Shown here in pieces: positions 31,989-46,318 of a DNA stretch of 64,000 bases (position 1 is its first letter; each line of letters opens with the position of its first letter). The translations under genes were made by a program, and so were the position numbers. The DNA comes from Dyella amyloliquefaciens (GTDB lineage Bacteria > Pseudomonadota > Gammaproteobacteria > Xanthomonadales > Rhodanobacteraceae). The stretch spans positions 1 to 64,000 of the forward strand of contig NZ_SAYT01000003.1 in the NCBI RefSeq assembly GCF_004296575.1, in the 5' to 3' direction. The notes beneath the pieces are model-generated. The model was given only the letters and a program-made list of their open reading frames with translations. It did no database searches and was not told the origin of the DNA.

Positions 31989-32342
<354 letters not shown>

Positions 32343-34778: not shown

Positions 34779-35195
34779 ATGGAACAGGAAACCAAAGAAC
34801 TGCGCAAAGCCGGGCTGAAGGTGACGCACCCCCGCATGCGCATCCTGCAGATCTTCGAAGACGAGGAGGTTCACCACCTCACCGCCGAAGACGTCTACAA
34901 GAAGCTGCTTGCCCACCAGGAAGACATCGGCCTGGCCACCGTCTACCGGGTGCTGACCCAGTTCGAGGCCGCTGGCATCGTCGTCAAGCACAACTTCGAG
35001 GGTGGTCAGGCCGTCTACGAACTCGACCGCGGCAAGCATCATGACCACATGATCGATGTTGACAGCGGAACGGTCATTGAGTTCGTCAGCGAGGAGATCG
35101 AACGCCTCCAGCACGAAATCGCGGCGCGCCACGGCTATGTGATCGAGGATCACAGCCTGGTGCTGTACGTGCGGCCCAAGCAGAAGGCCAAGTAA
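34779..35195 (+). CDS. fur: Ferric uptake regulator Fur
   Basis: The ATG at 34779 follows GGAG and gives 138 residues. The winged helix has LRKAGLKVTHPRMRILQIFE and LAHQEDIGLATVYRVLTQFE; the dimerisation domain has the His-rich HHDHMIDVDSGTVIEF. The CxxC zinc site of many Fur proteins is absent, as in several Xanthomonadales and Pseudomonas Fur proteins. It represses iron-uptake genes when bound to Fe(II). The gene is followed by a strong terminator. Confidence 0.96.
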   Translation: MEQETKELRKAGLKVTHPRMRILQIFEDEEVHHLTAEDVYKKLLAHQEDIGLATVYRVLTQFEAAGIVVKHNFEGGQAVYELDRGKHHDHMIDVDSGTVIEFVSEEIERLQHEIAARHGYVIEDHSLVLYVRPKQKAK

Positions 35196-35219: not shown

Positions 35220-35251
35220 AAAGCCGGTGGCGGCGCCATCGGCTTTTTTTT
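35220..35251 (+). terminator. Intrinsic terminator of fur
   Basis: AAAGCCGGTGGC (35220-35231) pairs with GCCATCGGCTTT (35235-35246) around GGC, followed by T to 35251. Confidence 0.92.
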
Positions 35252-35332: not shown

Positions 35333-35526
35333 AAAAAAAGCCGCGGGAGGACTCCTGTCCGCCCTGCGGCTTGATCCGTTACCGGATGGCCCCTGGAGAT
35401 GGCGAGTTGCTCGCTCAACCCGGTCGTGCCACCGATTCCGGCGGAACGGCATCCTGCCGCTCTTCTTGCCCACCGTCCCCACGGTTGGCAAGGCTCACCA
35501 TCTTGCGATGGTGGCTCCCCCACATC
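35333..35526 (-). ncRNA. Candidate structured small RNA, possibly RsmA/CsrA-binding
   Basis: This non-coding stretch folds on the minus strand into consecutive hairpins: CACCATC-GCAA-GATGGTG (35513-35496), ACCGT-GGGG-ACGGT extended by TGCCA/TGGCA (35490-35467), CGGCA-GGA-TGCCG (35459-35447), GCGAG-CAA-CTCGC (35414-35402), ATCCG-GTAA-CGGAT (35387-35374), and a terminator stem with an AGGA loop followed by seven T. Two GNRA loops and the U-run fix the strand. At least three apical loops display GGA, the recognition core of RsmA/CsrA, as in RsmY/RsmZ/CsrB. The 5' end near 35526 is a guess and no clear promoter is seen. It lies between the convergent fur and MASE1-kinase genes. Confidence 0.5.
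35338..35372 (-). terminator. Intrinsic terminator of the candidate small RNA / kinase gene
   Basis: On the minus strand AAGCCGC, GGG and GGAC pair with GTCC, CCC and GCGGCTT around an AGGA loop, followed by TTTTTTT (35339-35333). On the plus strand only two T follow. Confidence 0.85.
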
Positions 35527-35589
35527 GATGTAGCCAGACTAACGAAGCCTTCACACGTCCGGTATTGGAAAATTTCCTATGTAACGTTC

Positions 35590-37185
35590 CTAAGTGCGAG
35601 CCACGTCACCGGTTTGCGTGTTGCTGCGCAGCAAAATGCGCAGATGGACCCCCTGGGACTCCGGCCGCACGCGGAACAGCCCGCCCAGCGCGGTGACCCG
35701 GTCGCGCATGCCCTGCATGCCGCGTCCGCCCCGCGGCATCCGGGCCGGCAGGCCGATACCGTTGTCACGGATGTCCAGTAGCGCCAGCGCCGCACCCTGG
35801 CGTTCGCCAATGCGAAGGCGCAGCTGGAAGATGTCGGCGTGGGCGTGTTTCACCGCGTTGGTGGCGCTTTCCTGGACCAGGCGATAGATCACCGTACGGG
35901 TGTCGTCGTCGAGCAGTCGCGGGTCGCCGCGCAGTTCGGTGCGATAGGCGACGCCCGCGGCGTTCAGCAGGTCGCGGATCGGGCCTTCGTCCAGGGCGCG
36001 CAACAGGCCGAATTCGTCCAGTACCGCAGGGCGCAGGTCGTCCAGCAGCCGGTGCAGGGCGCGGCGCATGTGGCCCAGGATCGCGTTGATCGATACCCCG
36101 ATGTCGTCCATGCCGGCCTGCGCCAGGCGGGACTGGGCGAGCTTGACGTGCGTCTGGATCGCAGTGAGGTTCTGCCCCAGCTCGTCGTGCAGCTCGGCGG
36201 CCATGTGCCGGCGCTGATTTTCCTCGGCCTGCAAATTGCCTCGGGCGGCGTCCCTGAGCTGGCGGGCAAGGTGGTCCAGGCGGCGGTTCACGGCGGCCAG
36301 GTAGACGTTCTGCTCGGCCACGCGCTCGCTGCTGCGGCGCAGGGCATCGGTGGCGGAGCCGAGCATCAGCGCACCCGTGCCGGCTACCGCCAGGAACAGC
36401 TCCCCGGCTGCGCTGGGAATGCCGTGGCCGGAAATGTGGTCCATCAGTGTCATGCCGAGGCTGGAGATCAGCATGGACAGGCTGGCGCCGCGCCAGCCAT
36501 GGCGGAACGCGAAGAACAGCACCGGCGCGAGCGACAGCACGCGGGCGAACTGCGGTTGAGGTGCGGCGTGCGAGGACAGCACCATCAGGATGGCCAGCGA
36601 CGGCACCAGCACCAGCAGGCCGTCCATCAGCAGGCGGCCCCAGGCCCGTTTGGCCAGCCGGGCGCGCAGCAGCATCACCAGCAGGGGGACTACCAGCAGC
36701 ACGCCGACGTAGTTGCCGAGCAGGTCCTGCCCCAGGGCCTGGATCATCAGGTCCGAGGTGGGGCTGGCGTGCACCAGGGCCAGCAGGACGGCGTCGGTGG
36801 CGGTGGTGGCGGCCACCGTGAAGGCGGCCGAGAGCAGCAGTCGTGCGACGTCTTCCGGGTCGCGCAGGCTGGGGTGCAGATTGGCGCGACGCATCAGCCA
36901 GAGGCAGATCGCCACCACGACGGGTTCAGGAATTTCGCCGAGGAAAAAGCCGGTCCAGCCCAGAGGGAGGCCGTGTACCGTGGCCAGCAGCCCCGTGGCG
37001 GCAAATTCGGCGCCCAGCAGCCAGGGCCACATCCGCACGGGAGCGAGCAGCAATGCGCCGAAGCGCAGGCCGTAGGGCAGCATCCAATACGGCTGCTCCG
37101 TTGGCCACAGCAGCAGCCAAAGCAGGAAGTAGCCGACCGCAAGCAAAAAACCGGTAGCAGGGAACACAGAAGATTTCGATGGCAT
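35590..37185 (-). CDS. MASE1-domain sensor histidine kinase (UhpB/NarX type)
   Basis: The ATG at 37185 gives 531 residues. About eight membrane helices in the first ~300 residues resemble a MASE1 sensor (YWMLPYGLRFGALLLAPVRM, FFLGEIPEPVVVAICLWLM). A coiled-coil (SSERVAEQNVYLAAVNRRLD) leads to the HisKA_3 helix with the phospho-accepting His in HMAAELHDELGQNLTAIQTH and a HATPase domain (ESATNAVKHAHAD, DNGIGLPARMPRGGRGMQGM). It is divergent from, and surely paired with, the LuxR-type regulator at 37255. This pair interrupts the usual fur-recN neighbourhood. Confidence 0.9.
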   Translation of the reverse strand: MPSKSSVFPATGFLLAVGYFLLWLLLWPTEQPYWMLPYGLRFGALLLAPVRMWPWLLGAEFAATGLLATVHGLPLGWTGFFLGEIPEPVVVAICLWLMRRANLHPSLRDPEDVARLLLSAAFTVAATTATDAVLLALVHASPTSDLMIQALGQDLLGNYVGVLLVVPLLVMLLRARLAKRAWGRLLMDGLLVLVPSLAILMVLSSHAAPQPQFARVLSLAPVLFFAFRHGWRGASLSMLISSLGMTLMDHISGHGIPSAAGELFLAVAGTGALMLGSATDALRRSSERVAEQNVYLAAVNRRLDHLARQLRDAARGNLQAEENQRRHMAAELHDELGQNLTAIQTHVKLAQSRLAQAGMDDIGVSINAILGHMRRALHRLLDDLRPAVLDEFGLLRALDEGPIRDLLNAAGVAYRTELRGDPRLLDDDTRTVIYRLVQESATNAVKHAHADIFQLRLRIGERQGAALALLDIRDNGIGLPARMPRGGRGMQGMRDRVTALGGLFRVRPESQGVHLRILLRSNTQTGDVART

Positions 37186-37243: not shown

Positions 37244-37259
37244 TACATGCAGCCATGTA
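37244..37259. promoter_or_regulatory. Inverted repeat overlapping the regulator start
   Basis: TACATG-CAGC-CATGTA spans 37244-37259 and includes the regulator start codon (37255), in the 69-bp gap between the divergent kinase and regulator genes. It could be an operator for autoregulation. Confidence 0.3.
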
Positions 37260-37890
37260 CAGCATTGTCCTGGTCGATGACCATGCCATCGTACGCGAGG
37301 GGTTCAAGAGGCTGATCGAGCTGGAGCCGGATCTGGAGGTGGTTGCGGAGTGCCGCAGCGCCGACGATGCGGTGGAAGCGGTTGGCCAGCGTCGACCCGA
37401 TCTCGTGGCGCTCGATCTCTCGCTGCCGGATGGCAGCGGGCTGCCGTTGATCGAACATCTGCGCAGCGTGGCGGTGGACACACGCATCGTGGTGCTCAGC
37501 ATGCACGATGGCGAACCCTATGTTTCCGAAGCGCTACGCCGTGGTGCCAGCGGTTACGTGACCAAGGGCGTGGCCCCGGAAGAGCTCGTGGCCGGCCTGC
37601 GCGCGGTGATGCAGGGCGAGTGCTTCCTCAGCTCGGACCTGCGCAAGCGTCGCGCCGAACGGCCGAGCGAATCACGCGATCCGATTCACCGCCTGACCGC
37701 ACGCGAACGCGAAGTCTTCCTGTTGCTGGCGGCGGGTCGCGCACCCAAGCAGGTGGCCGGCGAACTGGGCATCGGGCAGAAGACCGTCTACATCCACCGC
37801 GCGAGCCTGATGGGCAAGCTGGGCGCGGGCTCGGAACTGGACCTGTACCGCATGGCCGCCGAGCGCGGGCTGCTGCCGCGCAAGAACTAG
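37255..37890 (+). CDS. NarL/UhpA-type response regulator
   Basis: This 211-residue protein has a receiver domain (VDDHAIVREGFKRLIELEPD; phospho-acceptor Asp in LVALDLSLPDGSG at about 54; Lys in GYVTKGV) and a LuxR-type HTH (HRLTAREREVFLLLAAGRAP, then VAGELGIGQKTVYIHRASLM, about 145-190). It is the partner of the divergent MASE1 kinase. Relatives UhpA and NarL activate transport or metabolism genes; the targets here are not evident. Confidence 0.94.
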   Translation: MYSIVLVDDHAIVREGFKRLIELEPDLEVVAECRSADDAVEAVGQRRPDLVALDLSLPDGSGLPLIEHLRSVAVDTRIVVLSMHDGEPYVSEALRRGASGYVTKGVAPEELVAGLRAVMQGECFLSSDLRKRRAERPSESRDPIHRLTAREREVFLLLAAGRAPKQVAGELGIGQKTVYIHRASLMGKLGAGSELDLYRMAAERGLLPRKN

Positions 37891-46121: not shown

Positions 46122-46130
46122 AACCTTGTT

Positions 46131-46318
46131 GTCATTGGGGAGTAGCCATCCTCACCCCACGCAGCCCCGATTGGGCTGCATATCCCAGAGGAATCCGCGT
46201 CAACAGACTTGAAGCTCAGGCTTCATGGCGTGGATGGTGAACGACACTTTCGGTGTCGGCAGCCCGGCGAGACCTTTGGCCGCGACGCGCTCACCTTTGC
46301 CGGGCGAGCTCGCGTCGT
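46131..46318 (+). ncRNA. yybP-ykoY manganese riboswitch
   Basis: The leader contains the conserved words of the yybP-ykoY aptamer in order: TTGGGGAGTAGCC (46135-46147), GTCAACAGACTTG (46199-46211), CTTCATGGCGTGGATGG, and the late GGCGAGACCTTTGG (46266-46279). After it, CGACGCG (46283-46289) and CGCGTCG (46311-46317) can form the expression-platform hairpin, 44 bp before the ATG at 46361. This class senses Mn(II) and turns on exporters such as MntP and Alx. Short frames inside the leader are artefacts of the structured RNA. Confidence 0.92.

Follow-up and report, generated by a model that had tools for sequence, protein, structure and literature searches.

The question raised by this locus is whether the short region between fur and a gene for a MASE1-type histidine kinase in Dyella amyloliquefaciens encodes a small RNA that acts on CsrA and, if so, what switches it on. 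An earlier note, made from the sequence alone, had read the minus strand as a chain of about six hairpins ending in an intrinsic terminator, with GGA in apical loops as in the RNAs that titrate RsmA/CsrA, and had likened its two-component neighbour to Gac/Rsm wiring. Within the window (the whole stretch of 64,000 nucleotides that was analysed), the hairpins, loops, terminator and neighbouring genes are all found where that note had placed them (Table 1). The RNA gene lies between fur, which is convergent with it, and the kinase gene, which is on the same strand and ends at 35590; the order of the module is regulator, MASE1 kinase, box, RNA, fur. The start codon of the kinase, the ATG at 37185, was picked by eye, the reading frame being open to 37506. 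We give a probability of roughly 0.75 to the reading that the region encodes a Csr/Rsm-type sponge RNA, switched on by the neighbouring UhpB/UhpA-like pair through a palindromic promoter box.

Table 1. Features of the locus, in window coordinates
Feature	Position	Strand	Basis or remarks
fur, convergent with the RNA	34779..35195	+	Pfam FUR; start picked by eye
Small RNA, ~197 nt, proposed CsrA/RsmA sponge	35333..35529	-	covariance-model match at 35333-35532 (the window sequence is part of the model), covariation, GGA loop test
Intrinsic terminator	35333..35370	-	stem 35340-35370, AGGA loop 35356-35353, U-run 35339-35333; both-side changes in 6/10 pairs
Small hairpin GCGAGCAACUCGC in the variable middle	35402..35414	-	kept in most rows of alignment A1; absent from the consensus fold
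Hairpin SL3, AGGA(U) loop 35455-35452, canonical A(N)GGA site	35445..35461	-	both-side changes in 4/6 pairs
Hairpin SL2, invariant apex CGUGGGGACG, GGA overlapping the loop edge	35466..35491	-	both-side changes in 7/10 pairs, 3 invariant
Hairpin SL1, loop mostly GNRA	35496..35513	-	both-side changes in 6/7 pairs
5' G-run GGGGGAG, holds a GGA	35515..35521	-	invariant columns in A1
Probable -10 hexamer TAGTCT	35536..35541	-	by eye
Palindromic promoter box TAGGAAATTTTCCAATA, presumed response-regulator site	35563..35579	-	centre ~32 nt before the -10, near -44
Histidine kinase, MASE1 + HisKA_3 + HATPase_c, UhpB-like	35590..37185	-	Pfam
NarL/FixJ-type response regulator, divergent from the kinase	37255..37890	+	Pfam Response_reg + GerE

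That the conserved structured RNA at this locus is real is near certain. Alignment A1 comprises 52 of 85 extracted sequences, which are the 88 first-fetched loci minus three without an exact 5' anchor (L085 and L086, which are chance matches, and L011 from genome G012, a true homolog with 201.3 bits). It was made on sequence with MAFFT, and the structure was derived with RNAalifold from the same alignment, which favours structure somewhat: in SL1, SL2, SL3 and the terminator, 97.3% of the 1716 cells are standard pairs, compared with 87.0% for shuffled controls, and slid partners give no more than 47.5%. Both sides change in 23 of the 33 pairs, and the covariation score was reached in none of 500 shuffles, so that the compensatory changes which the earlier note had proposed to look for among relatives are strong across Rhodanobacteraceae. 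Its count of about six hairpins agrees with the folds, which predict five to six, whereas covariation backs four: SL1, SL2, SL3 and the terminator. The stretch from SL3 to the terminator is variable in A1 except for a small, mostly conserved GCGAGCAAYTCGC hairpin, and the longest invariant stretches are the leader UGUGGGGGAG and the apex of SL2.

For the minus strand of 35333-35526, the folding energy is -99.6 kcal/mol, compared with -78.0 +/- 4.9 kcal/mol for shuffled sequences (z -4.4), but the plus strand also folds well (z -4.95), so that the strand cannot be told from fold energy. The assignment rests on the U-run terminator, on the promoter (box and -10) and on the loops, including the mostly GNRA loop of SL1. 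The GNRA loops and U-run invoked previously thus stand to this extent, joined by the promoter box and the -10 hexamer. A plus-strand reading was rejected despite its equally good fold, its loops being UCC-rich and the U-run terminator and -10 belonging to the minus strand. The terminator was read by eye and from the fold; the terminator pattern scan did not list it. Nor did it list what, by eye, appears to be the own terminator of fur, which faces the RNA on the plus strand at 35220-35251 (GCCGGTGGC..GCCATCGGC followed by a T-run). The 5' end of the RNA had been placed nearly right, at 35526; with the -10 placed by eye at 35541-35536, transcription would probably begin near 35529. Covariation, together with the conserved terminator and U-run, points to a free-standing structured RNA with an intrinsic terminator.

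Across 99 promoters, the consensus is TAGGAAaTTTTCCgATAcC, then cGTgAAggctTCGTTAggaT, and TWNNNT occurs in the -10 interval of all 99, which is a loose test. There is no recognisable -35, and a scan with the sigma-70 consensus found no promoter here; the missing match fits an activator-dependent promoter but equally amounts to an absence of support. Both the box and the 5' G-run were located in 92 loci; they are 54 nt apart in 74 of these and 52-56 nt apart in 90. An exact copy of the box occurs only here in the genome, with 4 more sites at 3 mismatches versus 2 for the reversed control pattern, and no copy was seen by eye in the intergenic region between kinase and regulator. In form, the box presumably resembles sites of the NarL/FixJ family, such as the RcsB box. 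Given the observed linkage of box and kinase, the conserved spacing and the uniqueness in the genome, the palindrome is a candidate NarL/FixJ-type site.

This linkage extends to the whole module. Homologs of the kinase and of the regulator (E 1e-40 and 1e-45) always occur together, in 100 of the 147 family genomes, of which four (G054, G090, G121 and G131) were dropped because they hold only distant paralogs (kinase identity of at most 42% in tblastn). In 94 of the remaining 96, the box or the RNA directly follows the kinase ortholog. Among 92 fetched ortholog loci, the palindromic box is located just 3' of the kinase in 90; the exceptions are G130, where the contig ends, and G060, a rearranged locus whose fetched stretch lacks fur and has no box within 520 nt. 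In the four unfetched genomes (G047, G105, G135 and G136), the RNA lies directly after the kinase by coordinates. Conversely, fur loci were fetched from genomes in which no RNA was detected (16 from other families and 4 from Rhodanobacteraceae); none of these 20 has a kinase match, and recN is in the fetched stretch at 14. At E 1e-75, a regulator ortholog was found in 64 of 299 genomes of the order, all of them Rhodanobacteraceae. Two paralogous pairs of a MASE1 kinase and a NarL-type regulator were also seen, L284 (G090:C36) and L294 (G108:C35), with kinases 34-36% identical in tblastn; there, palindromes just after the kinase (CTAGAAATTTTCTAG and GAGAAATTTTCTC, respectively) precede other sequence. 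Each paralogous regulator may thus have its own box beside its kinase.

The RNA itself was traced with several methods, in which the genome searches (BLAST, R1, kinase and regulator) scored limited first-pass candidates per genome, so that diverged copies may be missed in the counts above and below. With BLAST, the region is found in all 20 genomes of the genus and, at E 0.01, in 86 of the 147 from the family, including a few short pieces that match by chance. Counted as chance were matches of 36-39 bits over 20-32 nt in G034, G054 and G109, and a weak match in G045 (L085) that is not at the kinase; the true kinase locus of G045 is L279. Among 398 genomes of the order, the covariance model R1, built from A1, detects the RNA in 98, of which 97 belong to Rhodanobacteraceae. 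The sole match outside the family (G207, 19.0 bits) is marginal, as is a second match in G025 (19.5 bits), and both, which lack fur, kinase, regulator and recN, were counted as chance. A two-block DNA pattern, used in a looser version after a stricter one had missed even the window, yielded 102 stretches in named genomes; among the 80 listed, 78 match R1, spanning Dyella, Rhodanobacter, Luteibacter, Frateuria, Fulvimonas, Oleiagrimonas, Pinirhizobacter and MAGs, and the two that fail R1 (L209 and L223) were counted as chance. The RNA is also present on contigs labelled Thiobacillaceae and Candidatus Eremiobacteraeota (L187 and L224; 181 and 196 bits), which probably come from Rhodanobacteraceae and were assigned to the wrong bins.

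BLAST no longer detects the RNA in genera g2, g7 and g25, where it has diverged too far, and the box and the position are kept. R1 scores at the expected place are clear for L272 (61.7 bits), L287 (38.0) and L288 (36.4) and weak for L292 (21.6), L282 (18.8), L286 (15.5) and L278 (14.6), the latter four overlapping or nearing the chance range of the same search (L275, 19.0; L276, 19.5; L261, 13.1 bits). The match of L279 (14.6 bits) extends into fur, and no useful match was obtained for L277 and L281. For the weakly scoring or non-scoring diverged RNAs, a common origin is suggested by position and box.

Comparison with Rfam at the gathering threshold identified no family at the locus, in agreement with the earlier note, which could not match the RNA to a named family and had proposed this covariance-model search; 6S, tmRNA and other named RNAs were accordingly rejected for the locus. 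In the window, the only matches at this threshold are a tmRNA gene at 31990-32342 on the minus strand (200.8 bits) and a manganese riboswitch (yybP-ykoY) at 46125-46296 on the plus strand (64.2 bits). At a relaxed threshold, the best match at the locus is PrrB/RsmZ, with the whole model covered (19.9 bits versus a gathering threshold of 44, E 0.016). This match is a hint only and proves little alone because unrelated models appear at similar weakness, namely, Chlorobi-1 on the plus strand (E 0.036), Rhodo-rpoB (3.5) and ar14 (8.3). Among the homologs scanned in the same way, L286 matched RsmW with 16.2 bits (cut-off 52, E 1.8), and three others gave no Rsm match and otherwise unrelated weak matches. 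Our literature search found no paper on this RNA, nor on CsrA control in Rhodanobacteraceae.

The stronger case for the sponge reading comes from the placement of GGA. In predicted hairpin loops, GGA ranks first of the 64 trinucleotides in the main group (3.00 per RNA versus 0.72 expected; 15 RNAs), in the g13 group (4.33 versus 0.59; 3 RNAs) and in the diverged homologs (2.86 versus 0.53; 7 RNAs). In the same test, with 40 shuffles each, GGA also comes first in E. coli CsrB (9 versus 2.35) and CsrC (4 versus 1.45, with a z of only 2.0), but 21st in 6S, 21st in RNase P and 9th in the tmRNA of the window. The representatives, 17 of the 85 sequences and 8 of the 11 diverged RNAs, were chosen by us, and the members of a group are related, which inflates z. 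Other trinucleotides are raised in loops as well: AGG and TGG less than GGA, and GGG in all three groups, with z of 3.1-4.5 compared with 7.4-8.8 for GGA. Because close relatives of theirs were already included, L282, L288 and L292 were omitted; two of them, L282 and L292, show no loop enrichment when taken singly. In the RNA of the window, the raw count of A(N)GGA is not above shuffles (3 versus 2.04), and 3 GGA lie in hairpin loops versus 0.67 expected, a number reached in a fraction of 0.02 of 100 shuffles. Loop placement of GGA is not above shuffles in 3 of the 11 diverged RNAs, where fractions of 0.47 (L272), 0.35 (L282) and 0.39 (L292) reach it; in these, the A(N)GGA counts are raised (0.01, 0.00 and 0.01 of shuffles, respectively). 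L281, L285 and L287 show the converse, loop placement being above shuffles and the A(N)GGA count not.

At the level of individual sites, all 85 sequences have an A(N)GGA within the 40 nt that follow SL2, the place of SL3 (AGGA in 77, AAGGA in 4 and AGGGA in 4). The terminator loop reads CAGGAG in 84 of the 85 and CATGGAG in the remaining one, and in A1 the terminator stem varies from GGAC/GTCC to GGGC/GCCC or GAAC/GTTC under an unchanged loop. In the RsmE-RsmZ structures, as described in PMC4005645, A(N)GGAX loops are closed by C-G, with G-C below in SL3; the same account gives a lower affinity of RsmE when N is omitted and high-affinity binding of AGGGA and AAGGA pentaloops. SL3 of the Dyella RNA has an AGGAX loop closed by C-G and then G-C, fitting the published SL3 of RsmZ (PMC4005645), and is a canonical A(N)GGAX loop on a C-G-closed stem; the AGGA tetraloop of the terminator, without N and X, is a partial, reduced site. 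With two candidate hairpin sites, the RNA has fewer of them than CsrB. The earlier note had also listed the GGGG loop of SL2 among the GGA-type loops; this loop exists and does not vary in A1, yet it does not match the canonical A(N)GGA site. The Dyella genome contains one CsrA gene (91.9 bits, cut-off 27), and CsrA is present in 144 of the 147 family genomes. With GGA as the top loop trinucleotide, as in CsrB and CsrC, and a CsrA to bind, the sponge reading put forward previously gains support, and the RNA is very likely a CsrA sponge.

What remains of the comparison with Gac/Rsm is the presence of a two-component neighbour, whereas the identity of that neighbour is not Gac. The regulator scores 166 bits with the NCBIfam model of MctR, 150 with UhpA, 148 with NarL and 127 with GacA/UvrY (NF007018, cut-off 280), all below the cut-offs, and is thus not assigned as a GacA/UvrY ortholog; the kinase reaches 183 bits with UhpB (cut-off 408). 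UhpB, for the kinase, and MctR and UhpA, for the regulator, are the best full-length model matches, all below curated cut-offs. Known members of the UhpB/UhpA and MctS/MctR systems control transporter genes, whereas the linked target here is apparently an RNA. The GacA-type upstream element is TGTAAG-N6-CTTACA; allowing up to 3 mismatches, none is present near the promoter (35530-35600), and the 6 matches elsewhere in the window, all at 3 mismatches, are at chance level. A GacA/UvrY-like regulator is encoded elsewhere in the genome (G000:C11:81369-82004, L304; 217 bits, cut-off 280). The wiring thus appears to be Gac-like with different parts, and we consider that the RNA is probably controlled by the neighbouring kinase and regulator.

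Several other explanations deserve weighing. The RNA could be a CsrA sponge driven by the GacA/UvrY-like regulator encoded elsewhere, the adjacent kinase and regulator being linked to it for other reasons. Control of Csr RNAs by UvrY/GacA is the established wiring, as described in PMC4682653, and GacA/UvrY-like model matches occur in all 147 family genomes, none over the cut-off. These matches, however, occur whether or not the RNA was found, the entities that co-occur being the kinase, regulator, box and RNA, and the vicinity of the promoter contains no GacA-type site within 3 mismatches of the pattern; on these grounds, we rate this scheme as quite unlikely. A 3' UTR-type element of the kinase mRNA, involved in its stability or processing and without a promoter of its own, is very unlikely: the RNA does follow the kinase on the same strand, and in the window the box starts 10 bases past the stop codon, but the tight spacing of box and RNA contrasts with the distance from the box to the end of the kinase match, which ranges from -7 to 221.

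Another reading keeps the transcript and changes its partner: a base-pairing small RNA would use its invariant G-rich leader and SL2 loop to pair with C-rich partners, whether mRNAs or small RNAs, and its GGA loops would be incidental. The leader and the SL2 apex are indeed invariant in A1 over more length than a GGA site needs, and this strict invariance in the main family is unaccounted for by CsrA; the loop enrichment of GGG points the same way. Against this, GGA outranks GGG in all three groups, and the g2 homologs L277 and L279, which by eye lack the G-rich SL2 apex (the leader is still G-rich), carry 6 A(N)GGA copies versus 0.84 and 1.01 expected, respectively, so we regard a base-pairing small RNA as unlikely. 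Finally, the conserved AUGUGG, with AUG in 82 of the 85 sequences, could be taken for the start of a small protein. Coding is highly improbable because the frames between conserved blocks are not kept: from the leader to SL2, the frame is split 60 versus 25 among the 85 sequences, and from SL2 to the terminator loop it is spread 32/30/23. The open reading frames range from 18 codons to open, and the changes fit base pairs instead.

Under the preferred reading, a sponge RNA controlled by its neighbours, the membrane-bound MASE1 kinase would sense a signal and phosphorylate the neighbouring NarL/FixJ-type regulator, which would bind the TAGGAAAT-TTTCC palindrome and activate an otherwise weak promoter. 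The RNA would then present GGAs in loops, a canonical one in SL3, a reduced one in the terminator and others in the 5' leader, SL2 and elsewhere; these would bind CsrA dimers and withdraw CsrA from its target mRNAs. Transcription, binding of the regulator and of CsrA, and the effect on targets are steps that we infer from the locus. On balance, we also lean towards the view that this is a self-contained Csr switch, in which an UhpAB-type pair has turned into a one-target system with the sole job of switching on the adjacent CsrA sponge. A regulator with one target would be in keeping with known systems because, according to PMC4682653, the main targets of GacA in Pseudomonas and of UvrY in E. 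coli are their own Csr RNAs.

If so, Rhodanobacteraceae would have a counterpart of Gac/Rsm that was wired independently and keeps sensor, regulator and sponge together in one locus. CsrA is a global regulator, and Dyella, Rhodanobacter, Luteibacter, Frateuria and their relatives would gain both a CsrA antagonist and its sensor; a Csr sponge could then sit under a two-component system other than Gac/BarA. Owing to the compactness of the locus, the signal of the MASE1 kinase could be tested with one reporter, and with R1, a covariance model is now at hand for an RNA that no Rfam 15 family matches at threshold.

Among known systems, RsmZ/PrrB (RF00166), RsmY, RsmX and RsmW of Pseudomonas are similar to the Dyella RNA in size range and in the chain of hairpins ending in a terminator, and RsmZ shares with it AGGAX loops on C-G-closed stems, the SL3 of one resembling that of the other (PMC4005645). 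Unlike these RNAs, the Dyella RNA has an invariant G-rich leader and SL2 apex and is linked to a non-Gac two-component system, and its canonical loops are fewer, RsmZ having eight GGA motifs as described in PMC4005645. E. coli CsrB and CsrC likewise have GGA as the top loop trinucleotide in the same test, but CsrB is longer (369 nt), has 9 loop GGAs and, as described in PMC4682653, is driven by BarA-UvrY via an inverted repeat far upstream. Closer in taxonomy, RsmU (sRX061) of Xanthomonas campestris also belongs to the CsrA/RsmA-binding class, in a related family, and arises from the XC1332 mRNA (PMC7694677), unlike the Dyella RNA, a distinction drawn from its published description. According to the same paper, sequenced Xanthomonas genomes have no homolog of the CsrB/RsmB/RsmY/RsmZ type. 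As judged from its sequence, the Dyella RNA would thus work like RsmZ and CsrB, yet by score it belongs to none of the Csr/Rsm families of Rfam (clan CL00106).
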